From: Gammaproteobacteria bacterium | GTDB lineage: Bacteria > Pseudomonadota > Gammaproteobacteria > JAADGQ01 | Length of the DNA: 63,847 bases | Reading direction: 5' to 3' | Assembly: GCA_021648145.1 (NCBI GenBank) | Contig: JAKITI010000004.1 | Location: 1-63,847, forward strand | In this document: in pieces, positions 46,199-61,017 of the stretch | How positions within the stretch are numbered: the first letter of the stretch is position 1 | How the letters are laid out: each line of letters begins with the position of its first letter | Notes under the pieces: model-generated | Seen by the model: only the letters and a program-made list of their open reading frames with translations | What the model was told of the DNA's origin: nothing | Databases searched by the model: none | Translations under genes and position numbers: made by a program

Positions 46199-48130
46199 TT
46201 AGAATAGCTCTACATTTTCAGGCAGTTCTGCTTCTGAGCGGGTGTTGTCGCTCTTTGTTGCTGGGGTGCTGGAGAAGTCTGCGACCAGTGATTCCAGTTG
46301 CACGGAAAATTGTGACAAATCACCATTGTCGGAGATATTTTTGCGTGCAAGATCGGATAAATCCTGCACACTGTGATGAATTTGATGGATGTTGTCGCGC
46401 ACTTCGTTGGCCAGGCTGGATTGTTGTTCGGCGAGGATAGTGACCTGCACGTTGCTTTCGTTGATGTCACTGACGGCGTTGGTAATGATAGCAAAGGTCT
46501 CGCCTGCAGCGTGGGTACGCTCCAGATTGCGTGCGGAAACTTTGGTGCTGCGAGCCATCAGTGAAACGGCCTCTTGATTGCCCGCACGGATCGTGTCCAT
46601 GAGTTTACGGACTTCATCTGTAGCTTCGGTAGTACGTTGCGACAAGGCGCGCACTTCATCAGCAACGACTGCAAAACCACGGCCATATTCACCCGCTCGG
46701 GCGGCTTCAATGGCGGCATTGAGAGCCAGTAAATTGGTTTGCTCGGATATGGTGACGATCATGTCCAGAACCTGCCCGACATCTTCGTGATGCCCAGTCA
46801 GGGCGCTGATACTCTTTTCTAAATGGCTGACTTCAGTCTGCATCTCCTGCATTCCATTGATGGCGCTGTCGACCACAATTCGACCTTCGGTGGCTTTTTG
46901 TTGAACCTCTTGCGCGGTATCACTGGCTGCATTAATAGCGGTGCGTACCTGTTGTGTGCTACTGGCCATTTGTCCGATGGCATCGTTTAATTGCGTAATG
47001 GCATCAACCTGTTCCTCAATTGAGCTACTGGTGGCTTGAGTAATCTTCTGCGTGCTCAGGCTGCTTTGTGATAGGTTGGTGGCGACCATCAACACTTGTT
47101 GCACGGTGTTATCCAGCTTTTTTGTGAAGCGATTGAAGGCACGGGCAATCTGCGCTGTTTCATCGCGGCCATCTTCGGGTAGGCTGGCACTCAGCGCTGC
47201 ATGGCCATCGGCCACCTGCTCCATGGCATGGGTGATGCGCGACAAGTTACGCGTAATATTGCGTGAAAATAGCAGGGTCATGCCGATGAGGATGCTGATC
47301 AGTATCAGGGTGCATATGAAAATAATCTTTTTTGTGGCTGACCGAGCCTCTTCAATGGTCGTCTGGGTGGTTTCGATCAGGGTGCCTTGGCGCTGTAGTG
47401 CCTGCTGAATGCTGTTGGCTAGCTCGGCACGCAGACCTTCACTTTCACTCAGTCCAAGCTGACGCTTACTGTTCACCAGTTGATGGAAGCTCTCAGCATA
47501 GGAATCAATATAGTGCTTTATTTCGCTGCGTATGGTTGGATCCAGGTCACTCTGTTCCATGGTGCTTAGCAGAGATTTATAGGCCTGATCGTATCTGTCA
47601 ACATATTTATTGTTCAGGCGCAACAGGAAATCTTTTTCGTGGCGGCGCAGCATAAGCAGGTGGGTGAGCAGGTGATAGTTGTTGGTGGTCTGAAGTATTT
47701 CTTCTACGCGGTGGGCTGATTGACGCAGGATGCCACGTAAGCCTTTATTTTCATTGATGCCAATGGTCCGCACGAGGTGCTCTAGTGCGCTGAAGTGTGA
47801 TGTTGAGATATTTAAGTCTCGCTGGAGCTCGTCGAGAGGGGCTGTATTCATGCTCAGTTCGCTCATGATTTCGGAGAGCTCTTGTAGCTCCTCAGCCATG
47901 TGCTGCTGTTTTTGGAAAAAGGAGCTGCGCGAGTCCTGACTGTGGGTGAGTAGATAGTTTTGCTCAATGGCAAAGATGCTCTGCATATCGGCTTCCACAT
48001 CAAGCAAAGTGGTAACACCACGGTGCAGGAGGTCGGAACGTTGCGTATTGTATTGCTGTAGAGCGAGCAGGAAAAGAGCAGCAACAGTAATGGCGGCCGA
48101 GAGCAGGAATAACTTATGTTTAATGGTCAT
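46199..48130 (-). CDS. Methyl-accepting chemotaxis protein with HBM-type sensor domain
   Basis: The 643-aa protein has a TM at ~8-24, a ~240-residue periplasmic all-helical sensor, a TM at ~268-288, a HAMP domain and a cytoplasmic signalling hairpin. The sensor includes [19 protein letters not shown], typical of helical bimodular (HBM) domains that sense organic acids in relatives. The hairpin tip [32 protein letters not shown] is well conserved, quoted here in part as its known core. No CheR-binding pentapeptide ends the protein. No che gene is nearby. Confidence 0.93.
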
Positions 48131-48397: not shown

Positions 48398-50293
48398 ATG
48401 ACATCCAATTTAGCGGCTATTCGAAGCCATGAAAAAAGTGTGGCAGACCTTATTGTTGATTATTTACACCAGATTGGTGTGGAGTATGTTTTTGGTGTGC
48501 CCGGCAATGCAATGGAGCCGTTGTATGATTCGCTTGCCCGCAGTAAACGGATGGGTGGGCCGAGAGCGATTGTTGCGCGCCATGAAACGGGTGCAGCTTT
48601 TATGGCAGAAGGCTATACAAGGGAAACGGGTAAGCTGGGTGTGTGTTGTACGACAGCAGGTCCAGGTGCGACTAATATTATTACAGGGGTTGCTTCTGCT
48701 TATGAAGAGCGTACCCCGATGCTTGTGATTACAGGGCAAACACCACTCCCTTCGCTGGGGTTGGGAGCAATTCAGGAATCATCGTGCAGTTCAATTGATA
48801 TTGTCAGTATGTTTCAAAAATGTACACGCTATAGCACTTTGGTGTCACACTCGGCACAACTTGAAGGCAAGCTTATTCAAGCAGTTACAACCGCATTTGG
48901 GCCTATTCCTGGTCCAGTTCACTTGAGTATTCCCAGAGAAGTTGGTTGGAATGCTATTCAAAACGATGGCTTTGTATATGACTTGAAGTCATTAATCTCC
49001 AAAAAGCCTTTATATCACACGTCCGATGCAGAAATTAATGAAATTTTTAATGAAGTTTCTCACTCAAAGAGTAGCGTTATATTGATCGGCAAGCGTAGTG
49101 GTGCAGCAATTGATGCTATTTTTGAGTTTGCCGCGCTCACCCGAATACCTGTGGTTGCGACACCACAAGGCCGAGGCTTTGCAAAAAGTTACCACCCGCA
49201 ATTTAGAGGTGTCGTGGGGCTGGGGGGGCATTCTGATGCTAAAAAAATATTGGAGAGCAGTTCACTTGAGCGCATTATTGCTGTGGGTGCCGATTTTAAT
49301 GAGCTTGATACTGGGGGGTGGTCGGCTCATATTTTATCGGACAAAGTAATGCATATCGACTCGACGACAGAATATTTTTCTCGTTCATTTATGGCTCATT
49401 CACACACATGCGGTGATCTTTTTGAAATCTTTGGCAAACTCATCAAATGTGTCAAAGCAGGCCATCAACCGATGAGTGTTGGTAATGATGTGAATAAGCC
49501 ACTGGATGTCATAAGTTTTGATCGGCGAAGTGGCCAACAAAGGCGTAAAGAGAGAGAAAATGGGGCAAACTGTCAACTGATATCGTTGCATGATGAAGCT
49601 GAAAAGCGTACCGGAAAAGATCGACGTTGTTTGAAAAGCCAAGGAAGCTGGGCGGTAAAACGTTATTTTAGTGTTGAAGATGAAAGTGGCTATGTGAACA
49701 ATAATAATGCGCCCCTTATAAAACCACAACACTTAATGTACGAGTTATCTCGCTTATTCCCAACTAATACACGCTTTCTTGCGGATACCGGAAATGGCTT
49801 CATTTGGGCGATCCACTATTTACACCCCTACGCGTCGCCTGATACAAAAAGCAGAGCTTGTGGTAATGAAGTGCTAAGAACGGGTTTTGCTTTTGCTTCA
49901 ATGGGCTGGTCTATTGGGGCGGCTGTGGGCACAGCGATGGGCAACCTGAATCAATCTGTCGTTTGCATTGTTGGTGATGGTAGCTTTTTAATGAGTGGGC
50001 AGGAAATTTCGGTCGCAGTTGAGGAAAAATTGAATATTACTTTTATATTATTGAATGATCGTGAGTTGGGTATGATAAAGCATGGTCAAAAGATAGTTGG
50101 TATTGAAGAGACGAGCTGTGAACTGCCCACAGTGAATTATTGCCAAATTGCTAAAGCAATAGGCGCTCAAGCCTTTGAGGTGTCTTCAGCCGATGATTTG
50201 GCGGCTTTGGATATTCAGGCAATATGCCGTTACCCTGGTCCTACATTGATTGATGTACATATTGACCCTGATGAACTTCCGCCTGCAAGATAA
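48398..50293 (+). CDS. Acetolactate synthase-like TPP-dependent enzyme with basic insert
   Basis: The 631-aa protein has the three domains of the ALS/POX family. The catalytic Glu is E63 (ARHETGAAF). The TPP-Mg site is GDG (526-528) through LLND (551-554), where the usual second Asn is Asp, as in several ALS-like enzymes. Between the central domain and the PP domain (~355-430) there is an extra ~70 residues with two copies of an RR(S/T)GxxRR motif: DRRSGQQRR (375-383) and KRTGKDRR (403-410). Typical family length is ~550. The substrate is unknown; it lacks an IlvN-like regulatory subunit. It ends 2 nt from the convergent kinase gene. Confidence 0.87.
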   Translation: MTSNLAAIRSHEKSVADLIVDYLHQIGVEYVFGVPGNAMEPLYDSLARSKRMGGPRAIVARHETGAAFMAEGYTRETGKLGVCCTTAGPGATNIITGVASAYEERTPMLVITGQTPLPSLGLGAIQESSCSSIDIVSMFQKCTRYSTLVSHSAQLEGKLIQAVTTAFGPIPGPVHLSIPREVGWNAIQNDGFVYDLKSLISKKPLYHTSDAEINEIFNEVSHSKSSVILIGKRSGAAIDAIFEFAALTRIPVVATPQGRGFAKSYHPQFRGVVGLGGHSDAKKILESSSLERIIAVGADFNELDTGGWSAHILSDKVMHIDSTTEYFSRSFMAHSHTCGDLFEIFGKLIKCVKAGHQPMSVGNDVNKPLDVISFDRRSGQQRRKERENGANCQLISLHDEAEKRTGKDRRCLKSQGSWAVKRYFSVEDESGYVNNNNAPLIKPQHLMYELSRLFPTNTRFLADTGNGFIWAIHYLHPYASPDTKSRACGNEVLRTGFAFASMGWSIGAAVGTAMGNLNQSVVCIVGDGSFLMSGQEISVAVEEKLNITFILLNDRELGMIKHGQKIVGIEETSCELPTVNYCQIAKAIGAQAFEVSSADDLAALDIQAICRYPGPTLIDVHIDPDELPPAR

Positions 50294-50295
50294 TA

Positions 50296-51246
50296 TTAGT
50301 CTTGTTGCTGTGGGATTAAGAACGAAATCATTGCGCCTTTCTCTTCATTATTTTCGGCCCATATTTTACCATGATGAAGAGCAATGATTTCTTTGGATAT
50401 AGCCAGGCCAAGCCCCGTTCCACCCGTACCACTTTTTGTTTTGCTGCTTTGTACAAATTGATCAAAAATAAGCTCAGTTTCACCTTCAGGAATTCCCGCA
50501 CCTTCATCTGATATAGAGACTTTTATTGCGGGTGTGGCATCACCTTCAGTTTCCAGGGTACTGGAGGTGATGTTGATATTGATTGTTGAGCTTTTAGGTG
50601 AAAACTTAAATGCATTAGAAACAATGTTGTGTAACACTTGTGTAATTTTTCCATCATCGCATTGAATTTCTATTGGAACACTGTTTTCGTGATGAACCTT
50701 CATTTGTACTTGTCGTTCACTCAGTAGTGTCGTGTACTCTTCTTTAATATTGAATACTATTTGTTTTAAATTGACTCGGTTTAACTGAAGTTTCATCTGC
50801 CCCGCTTCAAGTTTGGATAGGTCAAGCAGGTCATTCAGCAGCAATAAAAGTCTTTTTCCACTGCTATTTATTTTTGAAAAATAGCTGCCAATTTTTTCTA
50901 TACTGATATTTGTGTGTTTATCCATGCCAAACTTTGAAAAACTGAGTATTCCATGCATCGGTGTTCTTAGCTCGTGTGAAATGTTGGCCAAAAATTCACT
51001 TTTGCTATGATTGGCCTCTTCGGCAGTCTCCTTTGCTTCCGATAAGACTTTTGTATGTCGTTTAATCTCTTCCTGAAGGCGTATATTCATTTCAAAAACT
51101 GATGAAGAGTCTTGAGCCGAATGAAGGCTTTTTTTGATTCGATCTTTGAGCGCATCATTAATTTTTATCTGTTTTTCTAATGACTTTATATGTTCACATT
51201 CACTGCAATTATGTGGTGATGTGGCTTCTTCTTGAGGTAAGTTCAT
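50296..51246 (-). CDS. Soluble histidine kinase paired with a FIST sensor
   Basis: The 316-aa kinase has no TM helix. An N-terminal HNCSECEH (Cys14, Cys17) could bind metal, followed by a coiled coil (~20-80). HisKA has phospho-acceptor His91 in NISHELRTPMHGI. HATPase boxes are NIVSNAFKFSP, DEGAGIPEGE and GTGGTGLGLAI. It overlaps the upstream FIST gene by 4 nt, so FIST is almost certainly its input. No receiver-domain protein is encoded alongside. Confidence 0.9.
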   Translation of the reverse strand: MNLPQEEATSPHNCSECEHIKSLEKQIKINDALKDRIKKSLHSAQDSSSVFEMNIRLQEEIKRHTKVLSEAKETAEEANHSKSEFLANISHELRTPMHGILSFSKFGMDKHTNISIEKIGSYFSKINSSGKRLLLLLNDLLDLSKLEAGQMKLQLNRVNLKQIVFNIKEEYTTLLSERQVQMKVHHENSVPIEIQCDDGKITQVLHNIVSNAFKFSPKSSTININITSSTLETEGDATPAIKVSISDEGAGIPEGETELIFDQFVQSSKTKSGTGGTGLGLAISKEIIALHHGKIWAENNEEKGAMISFLIPQQQD

Positions 51247-52361
51247 CTGCGCTTGGTTCCAAAGGTAATGCCTGTAAGAGTTTGATTGACATGAATGGAG
51301 TTATATTGTTCACCGTATGTATTAAAACCATAAAGATTAATTTGATTTAACTTTTCTTCTACTTTTGCAGTTAAATCACAGGCTGTAATTTCCAGTTTTC
51401 GAGATAAACAATCACAACCGAGCGTGAGCTGAATGTTTGAGAATTTTTGTTTTAACTGCGATATTTGCTCTTCTAAAGACTGGAGGATGTCTTCAGGTTT
51501 GCCTAATGTCAGTGGTGTTCCATTTTCAATGGCACAAGCTGTGTACAGGCTACCATCACTATTGACCACTGTGAATGAACGGAGATACCATTCGCTGCCG
51601 ATCTTCAGCATGGTGGGATGCTGTGTAAATGATTCTGTAGAGAGTTCATCTATGGGGATATTAAAGAGTGATGCAAAGTATTCAGTTGCAGGCTCACCAT
51701 CAATTTCATAAACAATACGCTTTTCAGGGTCAGATTGAGTGATGACAAAGTCAATATCTGAGGGCGAAAAATGTTGCAGTTTGAATATTTCAAAATCCAA
51801 TAGGGTTTCTATCACTGTAAAAACAGCCGCATTGTGATGAAAGATACCTTCTGAATATACAAATGTTTTTTCAAACCTCATTCCATCACCTGCGGATCCT
51901 CCAATGATTGGAAGCGGAGAAAATATATTGTATATCGTGTTGATCACAGACTCTTCTTTAGCTGACATGCCATCAACCAATAAAAAACCGACTTTGTTCT
52001 TAAATGCAGAAAGGGTGTTACTCGTGCTTTTGAGTTTTTCGATGGTTTCAGAGTTGACGTGACTGACATCTTTAATGAGTGTCGGGGTGAGTTTGAATGC
52101 TTTAGAAGAAAAACTGATGCCAACAATGCTGTTATCAGTATAGTTCTCTCCAATTTCTCCGGCTGTTGTGCAGCCTATAACGGGGCAATCAAAGTGTTTT
52201 TCAAGTGATTTTCCAAGCAATTCCAGATTGTAATTGGGTGAACAGAAGAAAATGACTCCCGCCATATTTTTTTGATAAATCTTATCTTTTAATAAAGCGG
52301 CCGCGATCGGTGCAGACAGATTGGTAATCTGTGCAGTTTTAACATATTTTTGGCTTTCCAT
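51243..52361 (-). CDS. FIST-domain signal-sensing protein
   Basis: The 372-aa cytosolic protein has FIST_N (~30-215; FDCPVIGCTTAGEIGE, GGSAGDGMRFEKT) and FIST_C (~220-365; YEIDGEPATEYFASLF, TLTGITFGTKRR at the end). FIST proteins are proposed to bind small ligands such as amino acids and to feed kinases, cyclases or chemoreceptors. Here the stop overlaps the kinase start. The start at 52361 has AAGGAAAA upstream; a frame 26 codons longer has no ribosome site. Confidence 0.9.
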   Translation of the reverse strand: MESQKYVKTAQITNLSAPIAAALLKDKIYQKNMAGVIFFCSPNYNLELLGKSLEKHFDCPVIGCTTAGEIGENYTDNSIVGISFSSKAFKLTPTLIKDVSHVNSETIEKLKSTSNTLSAFKNKVGFLLVDGMSAKEESVINTIYNIFSPLPIIGGSAGDGMRFEKTFVYSEGIFHHNAAVFTVIETLLDFEIFKLQHFSPSDIDFVITQSDPEKRIVYEIDGEPATEYFASLFNIPIDELSTESFTQHPTMLKIGSEWYLRSFTVVNSDGSLYTACAIENGTPLTLGKPEDILQSLEEQISQLKQKFSNIQLTLGCDCLSRKLEITACDLTAKVEEKLNQINLYGFNTYGEQYNSIHVNQTLTGITFGTKRR

Positions 52362-52598
52362 AAGCAGACTTTTCCTTGAGTTTCTAGTAGGTGTTGTCGG
52401 TTGCTGGTTGTCTTTTCTTAACCTGTATATGCCAACCAAAAGTTACCGCCTCTTTTTTGATCCCACAAGGGCTCGAAGGCTTTGTTGCGATTTATGAATT
52501 TTCTGGTTGTAGCTCTCTTTTTAAACGCCGGTAGTGTTGATGTCGATGCTGGCAGGTGCTATCATTTTTGCTGTTATTATGATTAATAGAGAGCGACA

Positions 52599-52835
52599 TT
52601 GGCAAACTTGAGTGTAAGAAAGATTGATGATGAAACGGTGGAGCTTTTACGAGCTTGTGCAGAGCGTCATGGCGTTTCGATGGAGGAAGAGGTTAGGCAG
52701 ATACTAAAGCGTGCAGTGGCGGCTCCAGAACAAATGGGGGATTTTGCCGTAAGTCTTTTTAGTCCGGCTTATGGTGGAGATGAGCTGATACTACCAAAGC
52801 GTGAGGCATCTGAACCCATGGAATTTCCCGAGTGA
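52599..52835 (+). CDS. FitA-like antitoxin
   Basis: The 78-aa protein has a ribbon-helix-helix N-terminus (NLSVRKIDDETVELLRACAE, RHGVSMEEEVRQILKRAV) as in FitA/StbC antitoxins. The acidic C-terminus (REASEPMEFPE) would contact the toxin. The start is TTG with GAGAG ahead. The stop overlaps the toxin's GTG start by 3 nt. Confidence 0.88.
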   Translation: MANLSVRKIDDETVELLRACAERHGVSMEEEVRQILKRAVAAPEQMGDFAVSLFSPAYGGDELILPKREASEPMEFPE

Positions 52836-53257
52836 TTATTTTAGATACAAATATTATCTCGGAATTTATGACATCATGCCCTAAAAAATCGGTACTTGAA
52901 TGGCTCAACGCCCAAGACTCAGTAACACTATATTTAACCACGATTTCCATAGCTGAAATTGGGTTTGGGCTTCGAATTATGCCAGTGGGTAAAAGGCGTC
53001 AATTGCTTAATGATCGATTTAAACAATTCATTACAATGGCTTTTAAATCTCGTATTTTGACTTTTGATGAAGCAGCAGCTCAGGTTTACGGTGATATTAA
53101 AGGATATCGAAAAGAAATTGGCCGCCCTCTATCTGATTTGGATGGTCAAATTGCGGCCATCGCCCGAGCGAAAGGGTGTGTAGTTGCAACAAGGAATATT
53201 AAAGATTTTGAAGAGTGCGGGATCGAGTTAATCAACCCATTTGTTTCTGGGTCATAA
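52832..53257 (+). CDS. FitB-like PIN-domain toxin
   Basis: The 141-aa PIN nuclease has Asp5 in IILDTNIISEFM, Glu near 42 in ISIAEIGFGL, LSDLDGQIAAIA (Asp near 104) and ATRNIKDFEECGIELINPF at the end, all typical of FitB/VapC. The GTG start is coupled to the antitoxin stop. It is the second type II toxin-antitoxin pair in the window. Confidence 0.9.
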   Translation: MIILDTNIISEFMTSCPKKSVLEWLNAQDSVTLYLTTISIAEIGFGLRIMPVGKRRQLLNDRFKQFITMAFKSRILTFDEAAAQVYGDIKGYRKEIGRPLSDLDGQIAAIARAKGCVVATRNIKDFEECGIELINPFVSGS

Positions 53258-58015: not shown

Positions 58016-59020
58016 TTAATCCCAGATAAGGGGTGGTTCATTCATCAGTGCTGCTTGTTCACGTAGTGATTGAATATGCTCTTCCCAGTAATTGAGTGTG
58101 TTGAACCAAGGGAAGGCGAGGGGGAAGGCGGGGTCGTCCCAGCGAGAGCCTAGCCAAGCTGCATAATGAATCATACGTAAGGTACGCAGTGCTTCGATCA
58201 AGTGCAGCTCTGAGGGATTAAAATCATAAAACTGAGTATAACCTTCCAGCACATCGGCGAGCCGCGCGGTCATATAGCTCCGGTCTCCAGAGAGGAACAT
58301 CCATAAATCCTGAATGGCAGGCCCCATGCGAGCATCATCAAAATCAACAACATGAGGCCCTGCATCTGTCCAGAGAATATTACCAGGGTGACAATCACCA
58401 TGTAGACGCAGGTATTGAATGTCACCTGCGCGTTCGAAGCACTGTTTTATCTGAGTTATCAGGTCTGTGGTGAGTGATTGATATGCTTCCAGTAGGTGGC
58501 TTGGTATAAAATCATGGTCAAGTAAAAAACGGCGGGGCTGTATGGCAAAGCTTTCAATATCGAGTGTGGGTCTGTGTTCGAAAGGCTGGGTTGCCCCCAT
58601 GGCATGGATGCGCCCGATGAAACGCCCCATTTGCTCAAGATGATCTGGGTTGTCGAGCTCTGGCGCACGTCCGCCCCGACGAGGATAGAGTGCAAATCGG
58701 TATGATTCATATTGGTGCAGGGTGTTGCCATTCAAGTCAACGGTTGGCGGAATGACGGGGATCTCCTGCTCGGCCAGTGCCAGTGTGAACTGATGCTCCT
58801 CAAGAATGGATTTATCACTCCAGCGGTTGGGGCGATAGAATTTAGCAACTAAAGGTGTACCTTGATCAAGACCCACTTGATAGACTCGGTTTTCATAGCT
58901 GTTCAAAGCTAGAAATCGACCATCACAACATAAACCTGTGGACTCAATGGCATCTAACATGGTGTCTGGAGTGAGGTTGGAAAAAGCTTGTAACGCTGAA
59001 GGTATATTCTTTTTTTTCAT
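58016..59020 (-). CDS. srkA: Stress response Ser/Thr kinase SrkA (YihE/RdoA)
   Basis: The 334-aa protein is an APH-type kinase. The catalytic loop is LRLHGDCHPGNILW and the Mg site VVDFDDARMGP. Family stretches FALYPRRGGRAPELDN and QMGRFIGRIHAMGA are present. SrkA counters stress-induced cell death in E. coli. The ATG at 59020 overlaps the phoR stop by one base; an in-frame ATG six codons earlier lies inside phoR and is less likely. Confidence 0.93.
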   Translation of the reverse strand: MKKKNIPSALQAFSNLTPDTMLDAIESTGLCCDGRFLALNSYENRVYQVGLDQGTPLVAKFYRPNRWSDKSILEEHQFTLALAEQEIPVIPPTVDLNGNTLHQYESYRFALYPRRGGRAPELDNPDHLEQMGRFIGRIHAMGATQPFEHRPTLDIESFAIQPRRFLLDHDFIPSHLLEAYQSLTTDLITQIKQCFERAGDIQYLRLHGDCHPGNILWTDAGPHVVDFDDARMGPAIQDLWMFLSGDRSYMTARLADVLEGYTQFYDFNPSELHLIEALRTLRMIHYAAWLGSRWDDPAFPLAFPWFNTLNYWEEHIQSLREQAALMNEPPLIWD

Positions 59021-60318
59021 TAGGGGAACCTTTGCCATCCTGCTTGAAAAATGCAGGTAAACGTACTGCCTCGACCAGGGGTGCTATCAATATGCAGATC
59101 AGCACCATGGCGACGTAAAATTTGTTCTACGATAGAGAGTCCAAGGCCCGTTCCGCCTGTTGCTTTGGAGCGGCCGGAGTCAACACGGTAAAATCGTTCT
59201 GTTAAACGGGGAATATGCCCCCATGCAATACCAATGCCCTTATCTTTGACTTCAAAGCAGGCCGTATTGTTATCTTTATTCAGATACCATCGAATACTGA
59301 TTTTTTTCCCTTCAGGTGTGTAACGTATTGCATTGTTGGTCAGGTTAATAAATGCGCTGTGTAGCTCATCTTTAATGCCAAAGAGGTGGGTATCTGTTTC
59401 AATGCTGCATTGAATCACATGTTTTCCATTGCTGATATGTTGAGCCTCATCTGTGACTTGCTGAGCCAGACTGGGAATATCAATCTTGGTATTCTTTTCT
59501 TCGTTTGAAGTGGTGTCAAGCCGAGAGAGCATCAAGAGGTCATCCACCAAGGTCTGGATGCGTTTGGTGGGTGATTGCAGTTTAGCTATTTGATCACGTA
59601 GTTTTTGGGAGTCAGTATCGGCTGGGGCGTTTAATAGCATCTCTAGATAACCGAGAATAACCGTTAATGGTGTGCGTAATTCATGTGATATGTTTGCAAC
59701 TAGGTCGTGACGCATGGTCATCAGGTGGTGAATGTGCGTGATGTCTCTGATGACTAACAGTCGTTGGTTTTCTCCATAAGGGCGGATGCGCGCATCCAGT
59801 AAAATATTTTCATCCAGAGGTGAATTAATCTCCAGATGTTTACTGTAATCACCTTTGCGAAGAAATTTATGAAAGGCAGGGCTTCGTAGTAAGTTGTTAA
59901 TATTTTGGCCAATATCAGATTTTGTGACTCCAAGGGTTCGGGTCGCGGCATTGTTGATCCATTCAATCTCCTCATTTGAAGTGAGTACGACGGCAGCATC
60001 GGGCAGTGCTTGCGTGGATTTTTGAAAACGGCGAATGACATCCGCCATGCGTTTTCGGCGTTTTCTGCTTCGCCGACGATTTTGATGAATACGGTAGGCA
60101 AGGTTATGCCATATTCCTTCTAGTTCGTAAGGTGGAATCGTGAGGTCGTTATCAAGCCAGCGCTCCAGATGGCGGACTTGCAATGCTTGCCAAAATAGAT
60201 AAAGAAGAAGCCCGGTGGCCAGTGACCATGCGATGGACTCTAATACCAGACCAAAAATGAGGCTGATGCAAATCACGCCAAGAAGACGCCACAGTTCAGT
60301 TTTCCATAGTGTAGACAT
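59020..60318 (-). CDS. phoR: Phosphate regulon sensor kinase PhoR
   Basis: The 432-aa kinase has the PhoR layout: two TM helices with almost no periplasmic loop (~10-45), a basic linker, a PAS domain (~90-190), HisKA with His in NISHELRTPLTVILGYLEML, and HATPase boxes (NLTNNAIRYTPEG, DKGIGIAWGHI, GTGLGLSIVEQ). It senses phosphate through PstSCAB-PhoU in relatives. It follows phoB by 9 nt and precedes srkA. Confidence 0.95.
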   Translation of the reverse strand: MSTLWKTELWRLLGVICISLIFGLVLESIAWSLATGLLLYLFWQALQVRHLERWLDNDLTIPPYELEGIWHNLAYRIHQNRRRSRKRRKRMADVIRRFQKSTQALPDAAVVLTSNEEIEWINNAATRTLGVTKSDIGQNINNLLRSPAFHKFLRKGDYSKHLEINSPLDENILLDARIRPYGENQRLLVIRDITHIHHLMTMRHDLVANISHELRTPLTVILGYLEMLLNAPADTDSQKLRDQIAKLQSPTKRIQTLVDDLLMLSRLDTTSNEEKNTKIDIPSLAQQVTDEAQHISNGKHVIQCSIETDTHLFGIKDELHSAFINLTNNAIRYTPEGKKISIRWYLNKDNNTACFEVKDKGIGIAWGHIPRLTERFYRVDSGRSKATGGTGLGLSIVEQILRRHGADLHIDSTPGRGSTFTCIFQAGWQRFP

Positions 60319-60327
60319 CGGGGGGGT

Positions 60328-61017
60328 CTAAAAGTCTCTGGAAAGCCGGTAACCGGCACTGCGAACGGTTTGGATCATTTTCTCTTGCGCATAAGGGCTT
60401 AACAGTTTGCGTAAGCGTAATATGTGTACATCCACCGTTCGTTCCTCAACATAAATACCAGGACCCCATACTCGATCGAGCAGTTGTTCTCGACTATAAA
60501 CTTTTTCGGGGTGATTGAGAAGAAACTCTAATAAACGATATTCTGTGGGGCCAATTTTAACCTCTTTTTCATCAATAAATAGACGGTGTGAGCCTGTGTC
60601 CAGGCAGAGTTTGCCAACTTGTATTCGTGTATTCAGGCCTTTTCCACTGCGGCGTAGCAATGCGTTAATACGAGCGATGAGTTCGCGAGGCGAGAATGGT
60701 TTGGTGATGTAGTCATCGACGCCTGCATTGAGGCCTCGAACGATATCATCCTCTTCACCACGAGCGGTCAATAGAATGAGTGGGGTCTCTTGTGTGGCCT
60801 CTTCTTTACGCAAACGTTTAGCCATTTCCACGCCACTGATTCCAGGGAGCATCCAGTCGATGATAAAAACATCGGGCAGCTGCAATTTAATTCTTTTCAA
60901 CCCTTTTTCAGCCGATGAAACTGCAGTGACGATGAATTTAGCTTGCTCTAAAGCTTCAGTAATCATTTCACGAATGCCATCATCATCTTCAATCAGTAAT
61001 AGTGTCGGATTGCTCAT
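60328..61017 (-). CDS. phoB: Phosphate regulon response regulator PhoB
   Basis: The 229-aa OmpR-type regulator has a receiver with acidic pocket (LLIEDDDGIRE), phospho-acceptor Asp53 (VFIIDWMLPG) and Lys in DDYITKPFSPREL. The winged-helix output is PTEYRLLEFLLNHPEKVYSR then VEERTVDVHILRLRKLL. It controls phosphate starvation genes. It is cotranscribed with phoR; no pho box was recognised in the 42-nt gap before it. Confidence 0.96.
   Translation of the reverse strand: MSNPTLLLIEDDDGIREMITEALEQAKFIVTAVSSAEKGLKRIKLQLPDVFIIDWMLPGISGVEMAKRLRKEEATQETPLILLTARGEEDDIVRGLNAGVDDYITKPFSPRELIARINALLRRSGKGLNTRIQVGKLCLDTGSHRLFIDEKEVKIGPTEYRLLEFLLNHPEKVYSREQLLDRVWGPGIYVEERTVDVHILRLRKLLSPYAQEKMIQTVRSAGYRLSRDF

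Follow-up and report, generated by a model that had tools for sequence, protein, structure and literature searches.

Three genes make up the locus, which lies within a 63,847-nucleotide stretch of gammaproteobacterial DNA that was analysed as a whole (the window). A gene for a TPP-dependent enzyme on the forward strand converges on an overlapping pair of reverse-strand genes encoding a FIST protein and a histidine kinase. The following features were assigned, with the basis of each assignment given last:

48398..50293, + strand: TPP-dependent enzyme of the acetolactate-synthase (ALS)-like superfamily (P0001), 631 aa; Pfam N, M and C domains, tree
49451..49708, + strand: M-C interdomain linker of the enzyme, variable and predicted to be disordered; alignment, pLDDT
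49520-49546, + strand: Arg-rich repeat DRRSGQQRR, residues 375-383 of the enzyme
49604-49627, + strand: Arg-rich repeat KRTGKDRR, residues 403-410 of the enzyme
50294..50295: gap of 2 bases between the convergent stop codons of the enzyme and kinase genes; sequence
50296..51246, - strand: NosK-like soluble histidine kinase (P0002), 316 aa; Pfam HisKA, HATPase_c
51049..51177, - strand: N-terminal kinase segment typical of NosP-linked kinases (LEKQIKINDALKDRIKKS...SVFEMNIRLQEEIKRHT); alignment against paralogues
51243..51246, - strand: overlap of the FIST and kinase genes, 4 bases, ATGA type; sequence
51243..52361, - strand: NosP-like FIST + FIST_C protein (P0003), 372 aa from ATG; Pfam, NF041558

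The initial annotation had described an ALS-like gene lying tail to tail, at 2 nt, with an overlapping FIST-kinase operon that lacks a response regulator, and this layout was borne out in full. The TPP_enzyme_N, _M and _C domains all exceed their Pfam cut-offs, and the gap and the overlap are as listed. No receiver gene was found between positions 44 and 58 kb of the window; the nearest response regulator (60328-61017) is paired with its own kinase (59020-60318). The ATGA-type overlap suggests that translation of the FIST and kinase genes is coupled. An alternative TTG start at 52439 would extend the FIST protein to 398 aa. All three reading frames are intact and under purifying selection, with NG86 dN/dS values (0.13-0.16 for the enzyme, about 0.13 for the kinase, 0.09 for the FIST protein) that are approximate because dS is high. 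Promoter and terminator signals were no commoner across the locus than expected by chance.

Directly beyond the FIST gene lies a FitA-like antitoxin and PIN-domain toxin pair (52599-53257). On the other side, a methyl-accepting chemotaxis protein (MCP; 46199-48130) is encoded divergently from the TPP gene. Relatives have an MCP at this position too, but the two are not orthologous. We considered whether the window MCP is a remnant of an ancestral chemosensory block and rejected this, as it shares only about 26% identity, confined to the signalling domain, with the true members, which are 64-65% identical among themselves.

The FIST protein and its kinase

The FIST protein combines FIST (PF08495) and FIST_C (PF10442) domains and matches the NCBIfam model for the nitric-oxide sensor NosP (NF041558) with E=2.7e-108 over its full length (protein residues 16-368, profile positions 7-368 of 368). 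Its score of 362 bits lies below the curated equivalog cut-off of 450, and we therefore call it NosP-like and not a NosP equivalog. The orthologue in G001, the second genome of the genus, scores 371 bits, while in 14 control genomes the sole match was a Methanocaldococcus jannaschii protein below the cut-off. NosP genes are encoded together with a histidine kinase or a c-di-GMP enzyme, and here the partner is a kinase. A second, divergent FIST protein, about 26% identical and overlapping a 642-aa gene, is present in G001 (L051:4386-7446, contig C80) and is unrelated to the trio.

The kinase consists of an N-terminal coiled segment followed by HisKA (His in SHELRTP) and HATPase_c domains, with neither a receiver nor an obvious transmembrane segment. 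This corresponds to the published NosK of Burkholderia, a DHp-CA kinase without a recognised sensor domain whose gene adjoins nosP and which is under NO-dependent control by NosP (PMC12570481). The SHELRT sequence of the window kinase also agrees with the phosphatase motif H-E/D-x-x-T/N quoted in the same paper, where a partner response regulator is said to be 'often' but not obligatorily part of the operon (PMC12570481); in the window it is not. Like the window, NosP-NosK-NosR of Burkholderia and NosP-NahK of Pseudomonas and Legionella pair a stand-alone FIST/FIST_C protein with a soluble kinase encoded alongside it. The window differs from them in that its locus encodes neither a receiver nor a c-di-GMP output protein, in the convergent TPP enzyme gene and in a FIST score below the NosP equivalog cut-off. 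The earlier suggestion of an undescribed kind of sensing system thus does not hold for the FIST-kinase pair, which is of the described NosP/NosK kind (PMC12570481). What is new is its combination with this TPP enzyme.

Aligning the kinase against paralogues revealed that about 45 residues near the N-terminus form a segment common to five NosP-linked kinases (window, G001, G180, G058 and G080) and absent from five kinases that are not NosP-linked (four of G000, the genome of the window, and G001, and one of G369). This segment may be a docking region for NosP. The G180 kinase was also considered as a mere paralogue; we rejected this on the basis of its NosP-kinase-like N-terminal segment, though its position in the tree is poorly supported (0.68).

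Elsewhere in the genome of the window, norC, norB and norQ lie in a row with a divergent Crp/Fnr-type regulator alongside (L116:217-3755, contig C13). NorB matches the solved cytochrome-c-type NO reductase (cNOR) 3o0r with E=1.4e-224. Judging by these genes, the genome can probably reduce NO via a reductase of this type, and the organism thus probably handles NO.

The TPP enzyme and its ancestral locus

The enzyme carries the traits of the ThDP-dependent 2-keto-acid decarboxylase/carboligase superfamily, namely N, M and C domains, a catalytic Glu and a GDG-X(24-27)-N motif. Glu63, GDG526-528 and Asn553 are invariant in the alignment of all 48 family members. We infer from this that it acts as a decarboxylase or carboligase on a 2-keto acid. 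Scores against NCBIfam ALS models are all far below cut-off (at best 292 bits vs 538). While ALS large subunits (TIGR00118, AlsS) share the three-domain ThDP fold, the catalytic Glu and the GDG...N motif, the window enzyme has a replaced RFDDR motif (GADFNELDTGGW), a long Arg-rich M-C linker and no small subunit nearby. By sequence, it belongs to an uncharacterised gammaproteobacterial clade outside every curated ALS family. The nearest solved structures, BbmA and CsmA (PDB 8x3x, 8x3z; E=1.6e-78), are distant, with a linker of about 31 residues compared with about 87 here, and nothing on their function turned up in the literature searched. An AlphaFold2 model of the enzyme shows the three-domain layout with moderate confidence (mean pLDDT 63), falling to a pLDDT of about 26 over residues 356-438.

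This low-confidence stretch contains the extra basic insert of the initial annotation. The insert is real in that both Arg-rich repeats are present, but it proved to be a variable interdomain linker also found in some relatives, and family members differ in its length (29-86 residues). Besides the trio enzymes, those of 12 of the 44 non-trio loci carry Arg-pair repeats, mainly where the neighbours are chemosensory (Fisher p = 3e-4, uncorrected for relatedness). Within the trio, linker identity is 45-50% compared with 73-74% over the whole enzyme, and both repeats are kept.

The 44 loci outside the trio place the TPP enzyme in other company. Two citryl-CoA-lyase-like genes (CS1 and CS2) were found in at least 32, a TonB receptor in at least 29 and a PF04392 periplasmic binding protein (SBP) in at least 22, all lower bounds because contig ends truncate some of the loci. 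Sensory genes are also among the usual neighbours. The full locus is widespread in gammaproteobacteria (L040:6022-14345; L037, L039, L068, L041, L045, L046, L084, L087 and others), encoding the TPP enzyme, two half-length CS-like proteins, a TonB receptor, the PF04392 protein and a sensor kinase, often with MCP/CheW/CheR/CheA and an EAL-GGDEF regulator. CS1 and CS2 are similar in length to citryl-CoA lyase (PDB 6hxp) and match it weakly (E 9e-5 and 1e-3). They differ from citrate synthase/citryl-CoA lyase at both catalytic-His positions, CS2 having YGG for HGG and GYGRP for GYGHR. A single 886-aa ORF of G039 (L044:8276-10936) joins the TPP enzyme to the first of the citryl-CoA-lyase-like proteins, and this fusion suggests that the two act together.

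In the enzyme tree, the trio enzymes form one clade (SH-aLRT 100) on a long branch (0.74), sister to the enzyme of G002 (99). G002 has the canonical locus, with CheA-CheR-CheW-MCP next to TPP-CS1-CS2-TonB. The window has no citryl-CoA-lyase-like genes near its TPP gene, although the enzyme itself falls in the family tree; CS1, CS2 and SBP are absent from the whole genome, CS1 and CS2 from G001 and CS1 from G180. Given this tree position and the absent CS partners, we conclude that the enzyme left the ancestral locus and came to adjoin NosP/NosK. The TPP-CS1-CS2-TonB-SBP locus is a more surprising lead than the sensor pair and is apparently undescribed: no description of it turned up in the literature searched, which is weak evidence since journal coverage was incomplete. 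A new diffusible or nutritional signal may originate from it.

Recurrence of the trio and its possible meaning

We surveyed 369 gammaproteobacterial genomes and found the TPP family in 48 and NosP-like proteins in 16. Five genomes hold both, where about two would be expected by chance, and in three the genes are adjacent. Conservation of the three genes together, on which the initial annotation hinged, was thus seen in part: the trio occurs in the genome of the window, in G001 and in L030 (G369/G180, another family), while NosP is found near the TPP enzyme in none of the family's 44 other loci. G001 has the same gene order with both flanks different from those of the window. In L030 the trio is rearranged as kinase (-), TPP (+), FIST (-), on a single 15.8-kb contig whose end cuts NosP. 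We found no support for this contig being a contaminant from a window-like genome, and it is not an obvious contaminant since its composition is that of its own genome (tetranucleotide profile 0.91, compared with 0.83). The TPP enzyme was not found in two other genomes of that family, and in G002, the sole other genome searched from the family of the window, the enzyme is present and NosP was not found. The enzyme gene is 2 nt from its neighbour in the window and 38 nt in G001, and in L030 its distance from the FIST gene is 92 nt, so the tight spacing is not conserved.

What the FIST protein senses can be approached from its neighbours and from its family. The original proposal for FIST domains was that they sense small ligands, and the initial annotation suggested that the signal could be what the TPP enzyme consumes or makes, with pyruvate, acetolactate and amino acids as candidates. 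Adjacency in three genomes speaks for this idea, and the TPP family as a whole is indeed accompanied by sensory genes. The FIST sequence is of NosP type, however, and 13 of the 16 NosP-bearing genomes have no TPP enzyme adjacent to NosP, which shows that the sensor does not need the enzyme. NosP genes in other genomes often adjoin a kinase or a GGDEF/EAL gene and not this TPP enzyme. We consider such metabolite sensing highly improbable. The NosP-like FIST protein, the NosK layout of the kinase and the cNOR genes instead make NO, or haem, the likely signal. Haem itself has a precedent in Vibrio cholerae CdpA, a FIST-FIST_C protein described as responding to it (PMC8846402), and the NosP match below cut-off leaves room for a similar role. 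The separate FIST gene overlapping a sensorless kinase is nevertheless the NosP arrangement and cNOR is encoded in the genome, so that a haem sensor of the CdpA type appears unlikely here.

Whether the enzyme belongs with the sensor pair is a separate matter, and a functional link between them is possible. The three genes might form one functional module in which NO signalling has the enzyme as its effector or as a co-regulated target; NosP/NosK might, for instance, turn it on during NO stress, or the Arg-rich linker might tie it to them physically. The trio was kept in both genomes of the genus despite different flanks and recurs, rearranged, in another family, and it is precisely in the trio clade that the enzyme parted from its ancestral partners. 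Yet only three genomes are involved, which may reflect one event followed by inheritance and transfer; the copy in the other family is limited to the truncated contig described above, with two relatives lacking the enzyme; and the convergent genes cannot share one transcript. On balance, we find a functional module doubtful. Chances are about even for the view that coincidence alone, in one recent lineage, made neighbours of an NO-sensing pair and a TPP enzyme unrelated to it. The absence of the trio from G002 and the 44 other loci, the unconserved spacing and the small sample fit this view, and the sharing of one genome by both genes is expected by chance. Against it, every one of the three TPP-clade members has NosP and NosK no more than about 2 kb away, and these members span two families and two gene orders.

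Taken together, we consider it probable that the locus holds a NosP/NosK-type pair beside a TPP enzyme that has become detached from its ancestral locus and partners. Counting against this reading are the FIST score below the NosP cut-off, the response of CdpA to haem and a structure model of the FIST protein that, for lack of sequences, reached a pLDDT of 36. Judging by its family and by published analogues, the FIST protein is probably a haem-binding NO sensor. Through contact, it would alter how the sensorless soluble kinase balances autokinase against phosphatase activity, and the kinase would signal in trans to a response regulator whose gene lies elsewhere. The enzyme facing the pair would carry out decarboxylation or carboligation of a 2-keto acid, having descended from a conserved gammaproteobacterial locus and lost its partners there. 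A rather unlikely extension is that the TPP family and the two altered citryl-CoA-lyase-like proteins make a small metabolite signal in an undescribed sensory locus, and that the window enzyme was detached from it and rewired to the NO-sensing pair; if true, keto-acid chemistry would be joined to NO sensing. The vague idea of metabolite sensing is in any case replaced by a testable one, an NO-sensing pair neighbouring a keto-acid enzyme. NosP-linked kinases in other genomes include two large hybrids: one (L048:4227-9373, G058) is 1328 aa long and combines several receivers with Hpt, GGDEF and EAL, and the other (L049:6333-9310, G080) has 607 aa and two receivers.
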